IMG/VR virus record: IMGVR_UViG_3300010233_000019
Coordinates: 1-54,940 of that record
Reading direction: 5' to 3' (one strand)
Source of the DNA: a virus
DNA: 54,940 nt
Position 1 is the stretch's first letter. Each line of letters begins with the position of its first letter. Positions 48,147-54,940 of the stretch are shown piece after piece. A model generated the notes under the pieces. It did no database searches. It was not told the DNA's origin and saw nothing but the letters and a program-made list of their open reading frames with translations. A program made the position numbers and the translations under genes.

Positions 48147-48422
48147 TTAGGTTACTTCTCCTGTGATAAGGCAAACTGTAGTGAGGTGGTCACGAAACCA
48201 CCGTTCCATGCCATACCTGTCGGTTAGACCTGGGACAATGGAGATCATGTGGGCACGATTCTCACGGGTTCGGGGGAATCCCCCACTCCCGGGGCAACTG
48301 AGTTCCAGATGGACATCGGGAGGGTCACAGTAGCAATAATCATCCTCTCCATGACCCCCCATGCAACCTCCTGTGACTTCGAGGGAAATGGACATTTCTA
48401 CATGGTGCTTTGGGCACATCAT
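48147..48422 (-). CDS. small zinc-binding hypothetical protein
   Basis: A 91-aa protein beginning MMCPKHH, with C-M-G-G-H and C-Y-C, suggesting a Cys/His zinc site in the first 35 residues. A more regular second half follows (R-E-N-R-A-H-M-I-S-I-V-P-G-L). It overlaps the stop of the upstream gene (ATGATG). Function is unknown. Confidence 0.55.
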   Translation of the reverse strand: MMCPKHHVEMSISLEVTGGCMGGHGEDDYCYCDPPDVHLELSCPGSGGFPRTRENRAHMISIVPGLTDRYGMERWFRDHLTTVCLITGEVT

Positions 48423-48577
48423 CTTTCTTGTACTCCTCGATTGTGGCGTTTAAAGCCTCTTTGCCGACATAGGATTTCACATTCCTGGCATACCCCAATG
48501 TCCTCTTCGTAGAGGCAGATCGAAATGAGTTCCTCCTCGGGGAACTCCCGAAGGCATACTTCACATTGGGGGTGCAT
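48419..48577 (-). CDS. very small double C-x2-C zinc protein
   Basis: A 52-aa protein with C-E-V-C near residue 5, C-Q-E-C near 31, and a basic end. The spacing is that of a short zinc ribbon. GAGG lies before the ATG, and the start is inside the last codons of WCK-11. Its stop overlaps the next ATG. Confidence 0.6.
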   Translation of the reverse strand: MHPQCEVCLREFPEEELISICLYEEDIGVCQECEILCRQRGFKRHNRGVQER

Positions 48578-48725
48578 TTAGGCCTCGTTGGAATTGGGTA
48601 GAACATAGTGGGTGGGATCTGTATTCGCAGATTTGAAGTAGTTCCAGGGCAAGAAGTTTACAAAGATAGTGTCCCCTAAGCACCCAAGGTTGAGTAGGGT
48701 TACATTGATGCCAAATTGTCCACAT
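48561..48725 (-). CDS. WCK small protein 11
   Basis: A 54-aa member of the window's WCK family. It starts M-W-T-I-W-H-Q-C and has the invariant C-K at residues 22-23 (Y-L-C-K-L-L-A). The loop between is 13 residues and carries a W-V-L. A first cysteine at residue 8 is shared with WCK-9 and WCK-10. Its ATG overlaps the stop of WCK-10 (TGATG), so translation is probably coupled. No known family is recognised. Confidence 0.7.
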   Translation of the reverse strand: MWTIWHQCNPTQPWVLRGHYLCKLLALELLQICEYRSHPLCSTQFQRGLNAPPM

Positions 48726-48892
48726 CAGGATTTTACCCATTCCACGGTGCAACATTCCTGGAGATAATCCAGGTGCTGGTGTTGGTAGACTAGAAGTCTA
48801 ACCTTACATGTATCCGAACCTCGAATTTCTCGGGGAATGATGCTATGCTGATACCGTCTACTGCCTACACAAGAGTACCAAATATTCCACAT
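48725..48892 (-). CDS. WCK small protein 10
   Basis: A 55-aa WCK protein beginning M-W-N-I-W-Y-S-C, with the invariant C-K at residues 29-30 (D-T-C-K-V-R). It ends in C-C-T-V-E-W-V-K. Its ATG overlaps the stop of WCK-9 (TGATG) and its stop overlaps WCK-11 (TGATG). The start M-W-x-I-W and extra Cys8 make it closest to WCK-11 and WCK-9. Confidence 0.7.
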   Translation of the reverse strand: MWNIWYSCVGSRRYQHSIIPREIRGSDTCKVRLLVYQHQHLDYLQECCTVEWVKS

Positions 48893-49074
48893 CAGCCACG
48901 CTCCAACCAAATCTTACAACACAAAGGGAAGTAGCGAACGCTGTATTCCCACAACTCTTTTTGGGCAAGAAGTTTACACCAAAACGTCTCCTGCACATAT
49001 GGGGTAACATATATATGGTTATTCACTGCTGTGAGGGAGGCATCACAACTGTACCAAAGCTTCCAACATCTCAT
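48892..49074 (-). CDS. WCK small protein 9
   Basis: A 60-aa WCK protein beginning M-R-C-W-K-L-W-Y-S-C, with the invariant C-K at residues 33-34 (F-W-C-K-L-L-A). Its ATG lies in the last codons of gmhA (ATGA), with GGAGGAG just upstream, which gives it one of the best ribosome sites in the array. The C-terminus has two adjacent cysteines. Confidence 0.7.
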   Translation of the reverse strand: MRCWKLWYSCDASLTAVNNHIYVTPYVQETFWCKLLAQKELWEYSVRYFPLCCKIWLERG

Positions 49075-49610
49075 AACTCCTCCATCAATCCATACACCAA
49101 AATATGGCTCAAGATGAGATGGCCATCCTCGCTGCGACCCATGTGCATCGCGGGGACAAGGAGGGTGTGATCTGCGAGATCCTTTGCATGCCCCCCATCA
49201 AAGCCAAGAACTGCAAGGGTTTCCATATCCTTCCCTCGTGCTGCGAGAAGGGCAGCGAGGATGTTGGGGGAGTTTCCACTCCCTGAGATCACAATAAGGA
49301 GATCCACAGGACTCCCGTACATCTCGAGTTGCCGAGAGAAGATGTGTTCGTAACCCTCATCGTTACCCAGGGCGGTGATCATGGCCAAGGACGTGAGACT
49401 TTGGGCCTTCACATGACATTGTTTGGTGAGATCCTGGGCAAAGTGATCCGCAAGGGAGGCACTGCCTCCGTTGCCACAGATCCATACCGTGCCACCTCGC
49501 TCTTGGCATTGGGTTAGGAGATCCCAAGCCTTGAGGATCTCCGGTTCGGAGATGGAGGCAAGATTCTTTTGCAAGGAGAGGAGATAGGTCTTGATGTATT
49601 TTGAGGTCAT
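49071..49610 (-). CDS. gmhA: sedoheptulose-7-phosphate isomerase-like SIS protein
   Basis: A 179-aa SIS-domain protein. V-W-I-C-G-N-G-G-S-A-S-L-A-D-H near residue 40 and V-I-S-G-S-G-N-S near 106 form the sugar-phosphate pocket. L-G-F-D-G-G near 133 and E-D-x-H-L-x-L-x-H near 160-168 supply the active-site helix. This is the GmhA layout, which turns sedoheptulose 7-phosphate into D-glycero-D-manno-heptose 7-phosphate, the first step of ADP-heptose synthesis. The usual Gln of the Q-E-x-x-H motif is replaced. ATG 49610 overlaps the stop of WCK-8, and its own stop overlaps WCK-9. Confidence 0.8.
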   Translation of the reverse strand: MTSKYIKTYLLSLQKNLASISEPEILKAWDLLTQCQERGGTVWICGNGGSASLADHFAQDLTKQCHVKAQSLTSLAMITALGNDEGYEHIFSRQLEMYGSPVDLLIVISGSGNSPNILAALLAARGKDMETLAVLGFDGGHAKDLADHTLLVPAMHMGRSEDGHLILSHILVYGLMEEL

Positions 49611-49762
49611 AGAGAGGACTCTGAGGGCTTTGGTTGTAGCATCCACATCCTACCAGGAGAGGTCTGGCATAAGTACTTAAGTTGAGAGGTAGCCCAAATC
49701 TTGCATGGATACGATGTCCATCTTAGGAACCTTCCATTCTTGAGGTACACTATTATCCACAT
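49607..49762 (-). CDS. WCK small protein 8
   Basis: A 51-aa WCK protein beginning M-W-I-I-V-Y, with the invariant C-K at residues 20-21 (S-Y-P-C-K-I-W-A) and a late M-W-M-L strand. ATG 49762 is chosen because it lies inside the end of WCK-7 and matches the family start. A longer in-frame reading upstream is a shadow of WCK-7. Its stop overlaps the ATG of gmhA. Confidence 0.65.
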   Translation of the reverse strand: MWIIVYLKNGRFLRWTSYPCKIWATSQLKYLCQTSPGRMWMLQPKPSESSL

Positions 49763-49908
49763 AGGGGTGCTTCGTGTTTGGTGAGTTTCCATGTCAAACG
49801 TGGGTAAACACGTTTGCAAGCCACATAAGCCCCAAGTGCAAAGAGCTTACATTCATACTCTGCCCAGGTTTTAACTACCCCTTCAGAGACCCAAGTGAGT
49901 TTCCACAT
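49753..49908 (-). CDS. WCK small protein 7
   Basis: A 51-aa WCK protein beginning M-W-K-L-T-W, with C-K at residues 20-21 (E-Y-E-C-K-L-F-A) and a third strand L-T-W-K-L-T near residue 40. With WCK-8 it has the shortest loop of the family (18 residues from Trp to Cys). No clear ribosome site is seen. A hairpin lies 14-37 bases upstream. Confidence 0.65.
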   Translation of the reverse strand: MWKLTWVSEGVVKTWAEYECKLFALGAYVACKRVYPRLTWKLTKHEAPLCG

Positions 49909-50124
49909 AAATTTGAACTATCCAGCCTGTTCCCGGCACGGCTGGTCTCCTGAAGGGGTCTGGCCACCATAGGGTCATAGACCCAGTACGACCAAGATAC
50001 CCAAAGCAGGAAGGATATATTATATGCCCTGCCTTGGCCCCTTCGCGTCCTACCCCCACTCCGTCACTGAGTTATGAGGGCACTGCCCACACAGGGGATT
50101 TGAACCCCTGCTGTGAGGTAGAAA
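49909..50124. other. gene-free spacer with two hairpins
   Basis: No coding frame is convincing here. A 6-bp stem CCAGCC / GGCTGG with inner pairing lies at 49922-49945. A second hairpin (50088-50115) has stem CAGGGG / CCCCTG around a 7-base loop that reads TTCAAAT on the minus strand, like a tRNA T-arm. Outer CACA / TGTG pairing lengthens it. No cloverleaf can be built around it. Confidence 0.5.
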
Positions 50125-50307
50125 TTAAACTTGCCGAAATCTCACCTCGTATCGGAGGAGGGGATGGTCAGGATTTCTTGCACCGCCCCTCGCGCACCTT
50201 GCAAGTGCAAGGATCTTGCAAGGGAAGGAAATGGCTTCTATATTACCATATGCTCGTAGAGGCTTCATCTCCCCGTAGTCATATGTATTCCACCAAACTT
50301 CCCACAT
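50125..50307 (-). CDS. WCK small protein 6
   Basis: A 60-aa WCK protein beginning M-W-E-V-W-W, with C-K at residues 30-31 (S-F-P-C-K-I-L-A-L-A) and a third strand Y-E-V-R-F near the end. AGGAGAG lies 11 bases before the ATG. It stands alone between two gene-free stretches, not overlapped by neighbours, so it is the clearest independent gene of the array. Confidence 0.7.
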   Translation of the reverse strand: MWEVWWNTYDYGEMKPLRAYGNIEAISFPCKILALARCARGGARNPDHPLLRYEVRFRQV

Positions 50308-50782
50308 TTCAGATGTGCTCTCCTAGAATTGGCTCCCCAGTACCAAGAGGGTTTCAGAACCCTCCTCGGCTCTATCACATCCCCCGCTGAGGAGCCAGGG
50401 GAAGCGGAGGCATTTCTGCCTCGGTGTGGTGGGGAATTTCACCCGCTGGACTGTGTTGAAGGCTTGGCAGAGCAAGGGCCTTTGCAATCAAACTCTCCCA
50501 AGGAAGACTCCTCTCAAAGGACACACATCCTTTGATTGGGAATGAGCTTTGGTGATTGGTCAGGACCTTTGGTGGCAAACCTAACAGCTACGCCTTTCAC
50601 GCCCACGTTTCTCCGTAAAGCTACAGAGAACAAAGAGGTCATATAGATTTACTCAAAGCAGATCTAGCAAGGCTTGCTAGATGGACTTCAATACATCCGA
50701 TCACTCCTTGGGCAACCGATGCCAAGCTCCAGATATCCTCTGGAGGGGTTTTAAACCCCGTGCAAAAAGGTAAGGCTACCCT
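50308..50782. ncRNA. candidate structured RNA region, gene-free
   Basis: This 475-bp stretch has no convincing coding frame on either strand but many perfect stems. These are GAGGGTT/AACCCTC (50347-50364), GAGGCA/TGCCTC (50407-50422), CAATCAAA/TTTGATTG (50485-50538) enclosing AAAGGA/TCCTTT, ATCTAGCAA/TTGCTAGAT (50662-50682) and CTCCAGA/TCTGGAG (50727-50745). At its high end TTTAAACCCCG (50750-50760) can pair with CGGGGTTTAAA (50790-50800) or with its own left side, which would be a switch. Strand and family are unknown. It could instead be decayed coding sequence. Confidence 0.35.
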
Positions 50783-50950
50783 TTAGGGGCGGGGTTTAAA
50801 GGTGAATTCCCAAGTGGGGTACCAATATTGCCATTTGGCTATCTGGATTGGGAAACGGAGTTTGCAATGCACATCATCGTTCTCGGGATGGGGCATCCAA
50901 TCTCTGTAAAGAGTCCCCTCTCGGCGTCGGGACCAGAGTTGCCAGGTCAT
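50783..50950 (-). CDS. WCK small protein 5
   Basis: A 55-aa WCK protein beginning M-T-W-Q-L-W-S, with C-K at residues 29-30 (V-H-C-K-L-R-F). A strongly aromatic third strand follows (K-W-Q-Y-W-Y-P-T-W-E-F). It starts in the stop of the upstream zinc protein (ATGA). Its end overlaps one arm of the inverted repeat at 50750-50800, so translation and RNA folding could affect each other. Confidence 0.7.
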   Translation of the reverse strand: MTWQLWSRRREGTLYRDWMPHPENDDVHCKLRFPIQIAKWQYWYPTWEFTFKPRP

Positions 50951-51435
50951 AACATATACCCCAGATGTCCATCCTTGTAAGCGTCAAAGACCTCATTGGG
51001 GTCATCCTCAAAGGATTTGGCCACCATCTCAAGGGTGGCTTGAGTGGGTTTGATGACCTCGGGTAAAGGCCAGAGGAGTTTCTTCCACCCATCAAAGAGG
51101 CGATTGAATTGTGGCCAAAGAACCGGGGTGTGTTGCATCCATCTCCACAGCCTCTCCCCATCACAGAGGTACACATTGTCGCTTTGGGAGAGGAGATTTC
51201 GGATGTGAGCTTCCAGTTCAATGGGGATGTGGTACTTCTCCGGCCAAAGGAGACCTCGGAATTTGTCATCAATGTAAACCCATGTCTGACAGGTCGAGGT
51301 GCGCTTCTCACAGTAGCGGCAGATGATACTTCGCCCATCCTGGGTCTCCGGAGAGGGGAGGAAGTTGAACTCGATCCCACTCGCGGTGATTGTGGAGAAG
51401 CCACAGAGAAGGCAGGTTTTGGAGATGGTACTCAT
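50947..51435 (-). CDS. zinc-binding hypothetical protein
   Basis: A 162-aa protein. The first 45 residues hold CLLCGF and C-R-Y-C-E-K, a zinc-ribbon pair 27 residues apart. The rest is helical and aromatic (L-W-R-W-M-Q, F-N-R-L-F-D-G-W-K-K-L-L-W-P). It starts in the stop of WCK-4 (TAATG) and ends in the start of WCK-5 (ATGA). Function is unknown. Confidence 0.55.
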   Translation of the reverse strand: MSTISKTCLLCGFSTITASGIEFNFLPSPETQDGRSIICRYCEKRTSTCQTWVYIDDKFRGLLWPEKYHIPIELEAHIRNLLSQSDNVYLCDGERLWRWMQHTPVLWPQFNRLFDGWKKLLWPLPEVIKPTQATLEMVAKSFEDDPNEVFDAYKDGHLGYML

Positions 51436-51620
51436 TAGAGTCGAGCCATGGTCATGGTTCTTGGGGAGGTGATGACCCGAAGATCCTCGGGGGCTGTGCC
51501 AGCTTCGAGGAGATCATTGTATGCCCAGCAAATCTTGAGTTTGCAAAGGGATGTTTGATAGGTATGCCATCTATCACTCCAAACATCCCTATATTGCAAC
51601 ACATATCGAAGTCTTCTCAT
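51435..51620 (-). CDS. WCK small protein 4
   Basis: A 61-aa WCK protein. It is the only member without the first Trp. M-R-R-L-R-Y-V-L-Q-Y takes its place, and W14 and W18 follow. C-K is at residues 26-27 (S-L-C-K-L-K). ATG 51620 overlaps the stop of WCK-3 (ATGA), and its TAA overlaps the ATG of the zinc protein. Confidence 0.6.
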   Translation of the reverse strand: MRRLRYVLQYRDVWSDRWHTYQTSLCKLKICWAYNDLLEAGTAPEDLRVITSPRTMTMARL

Positions 51621-51802
51621 CTGGGGACACTTTGAAAGCGGGCTCGGGGATATCGGTCTTGCCACTCCCGTAATACTGCGAGACTTTGGAGTCTACAGGA
51701 GCGGTCGGTGTTTTCGTTATATCGATGGGGGTACTGAGGATTATAAAGTTCCTTCCACTCAGGGGAGAGGTAGTCTTGCTGGAATAGGATTTTCCAAATC
51801 AT
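51617..51802 (-). CDS. WCK small protein 3
   Basis: A 61-aa WCK protein beginning M-I-W-K-I-L-F, with C-R at residues 36-37 (R-S-C-R-L-Q-S-L-A) and a 33-residue Trp-to-Cys interval. GGAGGCTTAGG lies before the ATG, in the end of the ATP-grasp gene. It is directly downstream of ATP-grasp and is coupled to WCK-4. Confidence 0.7.
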   Translation of the reverse strand: MIWKILFQQDYLSPEWKELYNPQYPHRYNENTDRSCRLQSLAVLREWQDRYPRARFQSVPR

Positions 51803-51805
51803 TTC

Positions 51806-52582
51806 CTAAGCCTCCTTCTGGGCCCATAAGGTGATTGCCCTCTTGTATGCTATGAGGGTATTCGCATCCTCCACGGACGGGGCGGAGTTTACCTCAAGGA
51901 TGACAAGGGTTCCGTCATCCTTTTCGAGGATGTCGCAAGCTCCATGAGTGTAGCCAAGGGCCCCCACCGCGGACTTGGCAACTTCCTTAAGCCTCTCGGG
52001 TCTTGGCCACTCCCCGTAGTTGAGATGCCACCCATTTCTGCGGCTCCGCACAAGGAGAGGAGAGATCCCAGGTTCTACTTTGACCTTCATCCCCGAGCGG
52101 ATGGCTTTGTCTCCGAAGATATGTTGGCGGTACTCGGCTTTGGAGGATACCACTTGCACCCAGAAGTCTCGTGAGAGCCATCGTTGGGAGAAGTGTTCTC
52201 CTCCGATGCGTTCGGGGGTTCCAGCTAGGATTCGAGGACGTTGGACTCGGTTACCTTTCTTGGTGATGATCCATCTCATCTCGGTTCGGCTTGGACTTGC
52301 GGGGACCCGGGTGAGTCTTTGGAATTCCGGACCCACAATGTCCCGGCCCTGAGTGTGATGGAGCTTACGGCCAAAGACTTCAATGCCATTCCGTACCCAT
52401 GCCTTAGCCACCTCCACATCCGTAGTGAACTCAGGACAAGCAAGTCCCGCAAGGCGAAATGCTTGGAGTTGTTCTAGGCCATTCTTGCCACCTTGGCCCC
52501 AATGGAAGGTAGGTCCGGGGGTGTCTTTGAGGGCTTCCTGCAATGCCCTCGTGGAAGGCCAATCTGGTCCGGTAATTTTCAT
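51806..52582 (-). CDS. ATP-grasp amidoligase-like protein
   Basis: A 258-aa protein with ATP-grasp motifs. F-G-R-K-L-H-H-T-Q-G-R-D near residue 70 is in the nucleotide lid. F-W-V-Q-V-V-S-S-K-A-E-Y-R-Q near 140 and ACDILEKDDGTLVILEVNSAPS near 218-238 supply the metal-binding Asp, Glu and Asn. Such ligases join a carboxylate to an amine through an acyl phosphate. Phage members occur with class-II amidotransferases and cyclotransferase-like proteins, as here. WCK-2 ends in its ATG (ATGA) and WCK-3 follows its stop. The substrate is unknown; a peptide or protein terminus is possible. Confidence 0.75.
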   Translation of the reverse strand: MKITGPDWPSTRALQEALKDTPGPTFHWGQGGKNGLEQLQAFRLAGLACPEFTTDVEVAKAWVRNGIEVFGRKLHHTQGRDIVGPEFQRLTRVPASPSRTEMRWIITKKGNRVQRPRILAGTPERIGGEHFSQRWLSRDFWVQVVSSKAEYRQHIFGDKAIRSGMKVKVEPGISPLLVRSRRNGWHLNYGEWPRPERLKEVAKSAVGALGYTHGACDILEKDDGTLVILEVNSAPSVEDANTLIAYKRAITLWAQKEA

Positions 52583-52737
52583 CTAGGGATCCCCCTAAAA
52601 AGAACGATTTTATACTCAAAGTCGGCCACTAGTCCACATCTTTGCTGTGCGAGAAGGCGGCAGGGGTATCTTTCAGATGTGGCAAACCCCCAAGGATAGT
52701 TTGGTCCCATTCGATACATCACTTTCCATCCCCTCAT
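52579..52737 (-). CDS. WCK small protein 2
   Basis: A 52-aa WCK protein beginning M-R-G-W-K-V-M-Y-R, with C-R at residues 26-27 (Y-P-C-R-L-L-A) and a third strand F-E-Y-K-I-V-L-F. Its start lies in the stop of the upstream zinc protein (ATGA), and its own stop lies in the ATG of ATP-grasp (ATGA). It is therefore exactly wedged between the two genes. Confidence 0.7.
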   Translation of the reverse strand: MRGWKVMYRMGPNYPWGFATSERYPCRLLAQQRCGLVADFEYKIVLFRGIPR

Positions 52738-53207
52738 CCCTTCGCCTCTTCCCGTTTCCTCATCACCGCCACATCAAAACATGTCTTGGCCGGGGAGAAG
52801 GAGCGGATTTTGATCTTGAGATGTCCAGGGATCCTGGACATCTTGTTGATCTGCACGGCGAGGTTCTTGAGCTGGGTGGGGACAAAGCGGGGATTCTTGT
52901 ATATCCCTCCCCCACAGATCTTGCAAACCAAGGACGAATCCTTCTTGAAAGGCCAATCCCTATCACACTCCGCGAGGATGTGATGGAAGAAGGCTTGTTT
53001 TTGCTTGTGCCCTCGGAGGGTGATTTGGATGTGTTTGTCTTTGTTGTCAACCATTGATGTGGTCCTTGGGGCGAGGGGTTTGATGGGGATTCCCTTCATG
53101 CCAATCTCCGCTCGATGTTTGTCAAAGCGGCACTGAGGGCACTCCCCATTGTAGGTGTAGATATTCCTGGCCCCACACAGAGCACATGTGATGAGGATAT
53201 CACTCAT
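52734..53207 (-). CDS. two-zinc-ribbon hypothetical protein
   Basis: A 157-aa protein with C-A-L-C-G and C-P-Q-C in the first 26 residues, and a second C-K-I-C-G-G-G near 95. The C-terminal half is basic and strand-rich (Q-L-K-N-L-A-V-Q-I-N-K, H-L-K-I-K-I-R-S-F). It might bind nucleic acid. It overlaps WCK-1 by eight bases at its start and WCK-2 at its end. Confidence 0.55.
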   Translation of the reverse strand: MSDILITCALCGARNIYTYNGECPQCRFDKHRAEIGMKGIPIKPLAPRTTSMVDNKDKHIQITLRGHKQKQAFFHHILAECDRDWPFKKDSSLVCKICGGGIYKNPRFVPTQLKNLAVQINKMSRIPGHLKIKIRSFSPAKTCFDVAVMRKREEAKG

Positions 53208-53406
53208 CTGGGGTCACTCCTGCGGGGACGATGATATATTCCCATTTTTCAAGATTATAGTTGGTGTACCGTTCGGATATAAGTTCGACCTTGCATGGCC
53301 ATACCCTTCGGCCAGCTTCTGGGGAACCCCAAAGGGGATACCATCTTGGGTATTGAATCTCCCCCCTCCAGGTGGAACGATTGCGAAACCACACCTCCCA
53401 TCCCAT
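53200..53406 (-). CDS. WCK small protein 1
   Basis: A 68-aa WCK protein, the longest of the family. It begins M-G-W-E-V-W-F-R, has a 35-residue aromatic loop and C-K at residues 38-39 (V-W-P-C-K-V-E-L). The third strand is K-W-E-Y-I-I-V. AAAGG lies just before the ATG. It overlaps the start of the two-ribbon zinc protein by eight bases. Confidence 0.7.
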   Translation of the reverse strand: MGWEVWFRNRSTWRGEIQYPRWYPLWGSPEAGRRVWPCKVELISERYTNYNLEKWEYIIVPAGVTPDE

Positions 53407-53410
53407 AGGG

Positions 53411-53731
53411 TTACCTTTGTTTCTTTCCCATCAAAAGCTCATCCATATCCAGCTCCTCTGGGACCTTTGCCTCAGCTTGGGCACCCTCGGTCATCACGAA
53501 CTTTGCGGATTGCTGGGCACTCTTGGTGAGGGTGTCGCTCATCTTGGCAAGAGTCTCAAGAGTCTGAAGACGCTCCTCGGGCGTAGCAAGCTCCCCGGTG
53601 AGCCTCTCCTTGAGATGCCCGAGTTGATCCTCAATGAGATCTCGGATTTGCTTGTGGAGCTTTAGGGTTTGTTTGAGATCAGTCTCCAAGAGGGAGAATG
53701 GAGTCTCCTTAGTGCCTTGGGGTCGAGCCAT
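53411..53731 (-). CDS. coiled-coil hypothetical protein
   Basis: A 106-aa, almost fully helical protein (L-L-E-T-D-L-K-Q-T-L, I-R-D-L-I-E-D-Q-L-G-H-L-K-E-R-L, L-E-T-L-A-K-M). It has a short acidic then basic end. Small terminases can look like this, but without a DNA-binding domain the call is not supported. It lies between the amidotransferase and WCK-1, and its ATG directly follows the upstream stop. Confidence 0.5.
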   Translation of the reverse strand: MARPQGTKETPFSLLETDLKQTLKLHKQIRDLIEDQLGHLKERLTGELATPEERLQTLETLAKMSDTLTKSAQQSAKFVMTEGAQAEAKVPEELDMDELLMGKKQR

Positions 53732-54649
53732 CTAGTTCACTCCTTCGGAGGTTTCCATCTTGAGAGAATCCAAAAACTCCTGCCATTGCAACTCCAAACA
53801 CGCAGGGCAGACGAGTTCTTTTTTGGTGTCCACCTTTGTGGTCCGGCAGATGTAGCAGATATCCGTGCTCATCCAATACCCAGTACCCACCGGACGAGAC
53901 GATGTGCTATTCCACGGTGGGTATGACCCAACTTCGCCAGAGTTCGAGTAGTCCGGATATAGGGTGACTTTTTTTTTGCTCGCTTCAAAGGGAAGGGTTT
54001 CGATTTTGAGAAGCGTGTCTCTCCCATCTTGGGTGGTGAGTTGATACTTCACAAACTCATCGATTTGCCAATTCGTTTTGATTGGGTTCCCAAGGATCCT
54101 AGCGATCTTACTGAGAGGAGTGTATGTGGAACAGAAAACAAGTTCTCCCCCCTCGAGGGTGGCTACGTGGAGATCTTGGGTTCCAAAGCGACAGAAGTTG
54201 AGTTGATCTTCTTCATACCACGCCAGGGCTCCATAGCCCTCGAGGCCTTCCACACCTTTGCCTTCCGCAAAGTTCGCATAGATATGCATCGAGTCCACTT
54301 CAAACTTGCGATTCCATCGGGTGTTCAGATCTGTGTGGGTCCGGATGATTCCATTGTGAATGCCAATCACCCGTCCACCATCGGCTTTGGGAAACTCGAA
54401 GGGATGTGCATTGTCCAGGAGCTTTGGAGAGCCATGTGAGGCACTTCGGGTGTGGAAGATCCCCCGATGTCCGGACCACTCTGGGGGACACTCAAAGGAA
54501 TCCACAATGGACCCAATGTGTTTGATGATGGTATAGCCATCCGAGGCTCCCCAAGAATCCGTGCCTCTCGCGGACATCTCAATCCCAAGATACGGAAGCA
54601 TTGCCCGAGTTGAAGGGGTGATGCGACTTACCCCAAATATTCCACACAT
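53732..54649 (-). CDS. class-II glutamine amidotransferase (Ntn hydrolase) with zinc ribbon
   Basis: A 305-aa protein. ATG 54649 is chosen because it puts the catalytic cysteine at residue 2 (M-C-G-I-F-G-V), as class-II amidotransferases need. G-I-F-H-T-R-S-A-S-H-G near 70, A-H-P-F-E-F near 85 and I-G-I-H-N-G near 96 fit the glutamine pocket. No synthetase domain follows. Instead, residues 265-290 form a C-x2-C...C-x2-C zinc ribbon. It would release ammonia from glutamine or act as an amidohydrolase on a glutamyl product. It sits beside ATP-grasp and cyclotransferase-like genes. Confidence 0.75.
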   Translation of the reverse strand: MCGIFGVSRITPSTRAMLPYLGIEMSARGTDSWGASDGYTIIKHIGSIVDSFECPPEWSGHRGIFHTRSASHGSPKLLDNAHPFEFPKADGGRVIGIHNGIIRTHTDLNTRWNRKFEVDSMHIYANFAEGKGVEGLEGYGALAWYEEDQLNFCRFGTQDLHVATLEGGELVFCSTYTPLSKIARILGNPIKTNWQIDEFVKYQLTTQDGRDTLLKIETLPFEASKKKVTLYPDYSNSGEVGSYPPWNSTSSRPVGTGYWMSTDICYICRTTKVDTKKELVCPACLELQWQEFLDSLKMETSEGVN

Positions 54650-54681: not shown

Positions 54682-54940
54682 TTACTGAAGATTCCGAAGA
54701 TACTCCCGCCAATCCCCGGAGGGGATAAGTGGCTCTCCATCTCGATGGGGGAAGGTATATATTTCACACTTCCTGATAACTCCGTGGGTAACATCAAATA
54801 CGGAGGCTGTAAGTCTCCGATAAAGCCGTGGATGTCCCTCGATTTGATCAAGTAAGTGGAGAGTCCCTGGGGTAACTTGGTATATCTCCCCTCGGATGAT
54901 GTTAGTCCCGTCGAGGACAAGACTTACTCCCGGGACTTGG
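54682..54940 (-). CDS. gamma-glutamylcyclotransferase-like protein (5' end missing)
   Basis: At least 85 codons, open at the window end. I-x-x-G-x-[IV]-Y near the left end, then L-x-x-L-D-x-I-E-G-H-P-R-L-Y-R-R, V-x-V, C-E-I-Y-T-F and P-S-G-D-W-R-E-Y-L. This is the C-terminal two-thirds of the GGCT/AIG2-like fold. The catalytic Glu is probably the one in D-Q-I-E-G. Enzymes of this fold release gamma-glutamyl groups as 5-oxoproline. With ATP-grasp and amidotransferase it completes an amidoligase-type set. Confidence 0.7.
   Translation of the reverse strand, partial: QVPGVSLVLDGTNIIRGEIYQVTPGTLHLLDQIEGHPRLYRRLTASVFDVTHGVIRKCEIYTFPHRDGEPLIPSGDWREYLRNLQ

Follow-up and report, generated by a model that had tools for sequence, protein, structure and literature searches.

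The window, by which we mean the whole stretch of DNA analysed, comprises the 54,940 bases of a single IMG/VR virus record. Within it, an operon on the minus strand begins with a gamma-glutamyl cyclotransferase-like (GGCT-like) gene that is cut by the window end (54682-54939; Pfam GGACT, E=5.6e-13), followed by a class II glutamine amidotransferase (GATase_6; 53732-54649; Pfam, E=3.5e-6), the conserved small gene g534 (53411-53731), the mini-protein gene W11 (53200-53406), the conserved gene g527, which has CxxC motifs (52734-53207), W10 (52579-52737), a RimK-like ATP-grasp ligase (51806-52582; phrog_2599, E=3e-16), W09 (51617-51802), W08 (51435-51620), g509, also with CxxC motifs (50947-51435), and W07 (50783-50950). 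The order continues with a gap, W06 (50125-50307), a second gap, W05 (49753-49908), W04 (49607-49762), a SIS-domain (phosphosugar-binding) protein (49071-49610; Pfam SIS_2, E=1.7e-18), W03 (48892-49074), W02 (48725-48892) and W01 (48561-48725). Downstream of W01 lie g484, g481, g475 and the genes for an exonuclease, a Sak4-like annealing protein and a DNA polymerase.

The operon is of the known amidoligase/GATase-II/GGCT-like/ATP-grasp/SIS type, much as in LUZ24-like phages. GATase_6, GGACT and phrog_2599 are all matched in the window, and Amidoligase_2 adjoins the GATase gene in two related phages described below (G013 and G040); an amidoligase in the phage studied here, if present, would lie beyond the right end of the window. 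This class of amidoligase/GATase/ATP-grasp/GGCT gene sets was reportedly described by Iyer et al. in 2009. According to the available part of the report on phage UFV-P2 (PMC3890496), LUZ24-like phages group the same enzyme types, namely an amidoligase, GATase_6, ATP-grasp and an AIG2/GGCT-like gene, in an early module; unlike the operon studied here, the gene table in that part of the report contains no set of paralogous mini-proteins among the amidoligase and GATase genes. The SIS protein and GATase_6 resemble the separately encoded halves of glucosamine-6-phosphate synthase, and phrog_13807 matches both, the SIS protein weakly. Neither the SIS nor the ATP-grasp protein retrieved any related locus when used as a query, and the WCK alignment offers no block of sufficient conservation for a search of this kind.

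We refer to the small proteins threaded among these genes as WCK mini-proteins (W01, 54 aa; W02, 55; W03, 60; W04, 51; W05, 51; W06, 60; W07, 55; W08, 61; W09, 61; W10, 52; W11, 68). The initial annotation had proposed eleven such frames, and at its coordinates all eleven can be translated from an ATG start through to a stop codon. The C-[KR] pair that it assigned to every frame is present in 11 of 11. The N-terminal Trp, said to be missing in one, stands at residue 2-4 in ten and is absent from W08, and the distance from Trp to Cys, claimed as 18 to 35, was measured as 18-35. The W-x-[VIL]-[WYM] start proposed for the family is exact in seven of the eleven; the fourth position deviates in W04 (V), W05 (T) and W09 (L), and W08 has no Trp.

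Several lines of evidence indicate that most of these frames belong together. For each member in turn, a profile was built from the remaining ten, and the member's score was ranked among the 1294 frames of the window. In this leave-one-out test eight of the eleven ranked first (W01 with 27.3 bits, W02 with 15.9, W03 with 14.1, W09 with 22.4 and W10 with 18.0, as well as W05, W06 and W07), W04 ranked second, and W11, a weaker member, ranked third with 9.4 bits. The scores of these ten were reached by 0 to 9 of 1000 residue shuffles each (2 in the case of W11). W08 ranked 85th, and 255 of 1000 shuffles equalled its score, so its membership is not statistically supported; it keeps C-K-L, and its coding frame is supported. 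The proposed family of eleven is thus upheld for ten, with W08 as a doubtful member.

Within the size range of 45-75 aa, frames that match a strict form of the motif, M-x(0-2)-W-x-[VILMF]...C-[KR]-[LIV], number 10 in the family and 0 in the rest of the window. Their mean count in 400 second-order Markov simulations of positions 48401-53500 was 0.000, so the possibility raised at the outset, that such a pattern might arise equally often by chance, is not borne out. Three occurrences were found in 2.74 Mb of other fetched loci, one of them (L104) within a longer, unrelated 73-aa ORF. The WCK sequence family is real, with W01-W07 and W09-W11 as members, and the window yielded no additional copy.

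The annotated frame had the best codon log-likelihood of the six frames in nine of the eleven genes; W04 scored higher in the +2 frame of the same strand and W06 in one antisense frame. As had been claimed, ten of the eleven touch a neighbouring gene, with overlaps of 1-17 nt. The exception, W06, has 475 and 216 nt of non-coding DNA on its two sides. Ribosome-binding sites are clear for several of the genes (for example aaggagg before W09 and ggagtt before W03), whereas W01 and W02 have no clear site, and their start codons overlap the stop codon of the gene before them (TGATG), a pattern suggestive of termination-reinitiation. We considered that the frames might be mere coupling leaders and not proteins, and rejected this for ten of them because their residues are conserved. 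A strong hairpin that includes a T-arm-like GGTTCAAATCC lies in the non-coding stretch after W06 (50070-50120, minus strand); in the non-coding gaps of the region, ARAGORN called no tRNA gene and Rfam matched nothing above threshold.

Searches by sequence returned no relatives of the family. Pfam gave no match at E<=1 apart from one chance match to CRLF2-like_D2, and none to the DUF2188 or DUF1482 profiles; PHROGs, NCBIfam and PDB gave no sequence relative. There was no match at E<=1 to the PADLOC models either, a null that says little about an inhibitor role because PADLOC holds defence proteins rather than inhibitors. When five members were run by tblastn against 50,697 phage records, no match had an E below 3, and neither the 39 whole virus records of related phages nor the 43,072 frames in all fetched loci yielded anything convincing in profile searches. 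A degenerate DNA pattern for W..C[KR] found 25 stretches in IMG/VR, which we rejected as relatives: many reach a stop codon in 25 residues or fewer, those that stay open for longer do not resemble the family, and the most promising candidate, L104, is the unrelated longer frame mentioned above.

Structure prediction was more informative. The AlphaFold2 model of W05, built from an alignment of ten members, has a pLDDT of 93.2 and a pTM of 0.70, and consists of strands at residues 2-8 and 11-18, a helix at 21-34 and a strand at 39-44, a β-β-α-β order. The model of W10 has the same ββαβ order but is weaker (pLDDT 71.8). In the predicted fold the conserved Trp begins strand 1, the invariant Cys (residue 20 in W05, 26 in W10) directly precedes the helix, and most of the length differences among WCK proteins fall in the hairpin between strands 1 and 2.

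A Foldseek search with the W05 model matched dozens of phage proteins of 45-70 aa with a probability of about 1.0 and TM scores of 0.7-0.84. The best matches, with TM up to 0.84, superpose with an rmsd of 0.5-1.1 Å, whereas E was no better than 0.015 and sequence identity only 8-23%. Those with names include a DUF2188 protein and a DUF1482 protein. By element order and superposition, the W05 model fits the class of uncharacterised phage ββαβ mini-proteins (among them S-CBP1 A0A096VKD5 and S-RIP1 M4NNN5), which are like the WCK proteins in size and in their strand-strand-helix-strand order, yet have no detectable sequence relation to them. Upstream of the RNA polymerase gene, S-CBP1 and S-RIP1 have a set of small genes that includes those for proteins of 47 and 49 aa, which we take from their length to be two of the Foldseek matches. 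On these models the WCK fold is an ordinary one for tiny phage proteins, and the match is structural, not one of sequence. The statement that no such family is known therefore holds for the sequence but not for the fold. The proposal of a common scaffold with a variable loop gains support from the predicted ββαβ fold and the hairpin length variation; the binding role attached to it is one that we infer.

Eight related phages were found by way of their capsid, portal, polymerase and exonuclease proteins: G013 (65.8 kb, with an end repeat), G024, G027, G029, G031, G032, G036 and G040:C327. The last (locus L199) is a 63.6-kb phage contig whose capsid protein is 83% identical; it lies in a MAG labelled Thaumarchaeota (JAGWFS010000009.1), probably through contamination in binning. 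All eight keep the ATP-grasp gene, the GATase gene and most of the surrounding gene order. Relatives of g527 are present in G013, G027, G024, G031 and G040, and of g534 in G013, G027, G029 and G032; a weak relative of g509 was found in G040 (E=2.6e-4). Profile searches detected no WCK member in any of the eight, whose early proteins are mostly 30-60% identical to those of the window. The g527 and ATP-grasp genes lie no more than 12 nt apart in G013, G040, G027 and G031, so that W10, which stands between them here, looks inserted.

Two of these relatives carry small-gene repeats of their own in the same operon. In G036 (L091:4940-5855, minus strand) there are four tandem paralogues of 57-76 aa, coiled-coil-like, with Z up to 16; in G029 (L088:14759-15059, plus strand) two adjacent hydrophobic, membrane-like paralogues of 48-50 aa lie between the g534-like and ATP-grasp genes. 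The G036 proteins match phrog_4068 weakly. Both repeats resemble the WCK genes in being a lineage-restricted multiplication of small genes in this operon, but their proteins are unrelated to WCK. Small-gene amplification thus seems to have occurred in the operon at least three times, with different proteins.

Traces of duplication are visible within the family. Pairwise alignments scored against shuffles gave Z of 6.9 for W07-W09, 6.6 for W01-W03, 6.5 for W04-W05, 6.4 for W01-W10, 5.9 for W06-W10 and 4.8 for W02-W03; the neighbours W04 and W05 align without gaps over 42 residues. Genome neighbours have a mean Z of 2.86 versus 1.30 for other WCK pairs (permutation p=0.025), which fits tandem duplication, since that process predicts neighbours more alike than non-neighbours. 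At the nucleotide level, identity is kept in the CKLLA stretch and at the starts of the genes: W01 and W03 have an exact 16-nt stretch in common, TGTAAACTTCTTGCCC, and the 18-nt start region of W02 is 89% identical to that of W01.

About ten highly different copies of one tiny protein are therefore present in this uncultured phage. Both the sequence family and the way it has spread are new, and the literature on amplified small-protein families in phages yielded no close description. The reading that we favour, to which we assign a probability of roughly 45%, is that a generic ββαβ phage mini-protein underwent an amplification in the operon that is specific to this lineage, and that the copies diversified to bind several host targets. 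W01-W07 and W09-W11 would be diverged paralogues of one ββαβ mini-protein, whose ancestral gene would have been duplicated, partly in tandem. Copies would have been placed at junctions of the amidoligase/GATase/ATP-grasp/SIS operon and joined to it mostly by overlapping stop and start codons; read from these overlaps, the WCK genes would be co-transcribed and translationally coupled with the operon. A constant core, made up of the strand-1 Trp and the Cys/Lys helix start, may display the variable hairpin, and each copy may bind and block or redirect a different host protein, in host takeover or counter-defence. The content of the operon, which comprises metabolic and protein-modifying enzymes and no recognised anti-defence genes, counts against this reading.

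A precedent is offered by the AcrID1 paralogues of rudiviruses, 26 of 35 of which occur in four of these viruses (PMC11065993). They resemble the WCK proteins as several diverged small viral proteins encoded close together in one genome; they differ in having a known anti-CRISPR function and in belonging to archaeal viruses. Position, fold and the AcrID1 precedent suggest by analogy when the WCK copies may be expressed, that they may bind host targets and that they may differ in function. A more specific version strikes us as doubtful: the phage would hold a repertoire of mini-binders, one ββαβ scaffold present about tenfold and threaded through the operon with a different hairpin and host target in each copy, as one instance of a wider tendency, in this group of phages, to amplify small proteins specific to a lineage in the same operon.

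The divergence of the copies may instead reflect drift rather than selection. Duplications at gene junctions would then be merely tolerated, and most copies would have no function of their own apart from occupying junctions or maintaining translational coupling. In favour of this, the family is lineage-restricted and highly diverged, and the unrelated repeats of G036 and G029 point the same way, as does shared junction DNA: AGTG[TA]CCCCAGATGAG stands at the 3' ends of both W09 and W11 but is read in different frames. However, the paralogues have diverged to ~20-30% identity outside the Trp, Cys and Lys/Arg, which are nonetheless kept, and the frames are open in all copies. This indicates constraint on the protein, and we regard drift as an unlikely account of most copies.

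A role in nucleic-acid binding, on phage or host DNA or RNA, would suit proteins that are small, rich in Trp and Tyr and, in ten of eleven cases, net positive (0 to +6 over the set). We think it improbable, since the charge is not conserved (W11 = 0), no basic position is conserved beyond the single K/R beside the Cys, and no nucleic-acid-binding family is matched. The suggestion that the amidoligase, ATP-grasp and GATase enzymes nearby attach amino groups or peptides to the WCK proteins, which would serve them as substrates, carriers or adaptors, draws on the interleaving with GATase, ATP-grasp, GGCT-like and SIS genes, the Amidoligase_2 gene beside GATase in relatives and the one invariant Cys with its adjacent Lys or Arg, but found no support and is very improbable, as the enzymes are present in eight relatives that have no WCK gene, the C-termini have no residue pattern in common, and the Cys lies at the start of a folded helix in the model, not on a free tail.

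Few pools of genes that lack a known function are as large as that of tiny phage proteins, and a natural diversification series such as this one, in which a single genome carries the same scaffold in ten diverged copies, is unusual. The relatives that have the operon but no WCK genes show by comparison which gene junctions were invaded. If diversification for host-target binding is the correct reading, the copies could each lead to a host target, and the scaffold would offer protein engineers a compact frame.

Further features were noticed in the relative G013. ARAGORN made a tmRNA call there with a long tag (L028:9545-10081, marked with an asterisk), which may be false. In the non-coding gap before its SIS gene (L029:19594-19651) lies a tRNA-like element with an acceptor, T-arm and CCA and with the other arms reduced, which scores 18.4 bits, below the Rfam cut-off. 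Directly after its ATP-grasp gene (L029:17929-18402, plus strand), G013 encodes a 158-aa protein that matches nothing in Pfam or PHROGs and whose start reads like a ubiquitin-like fold.
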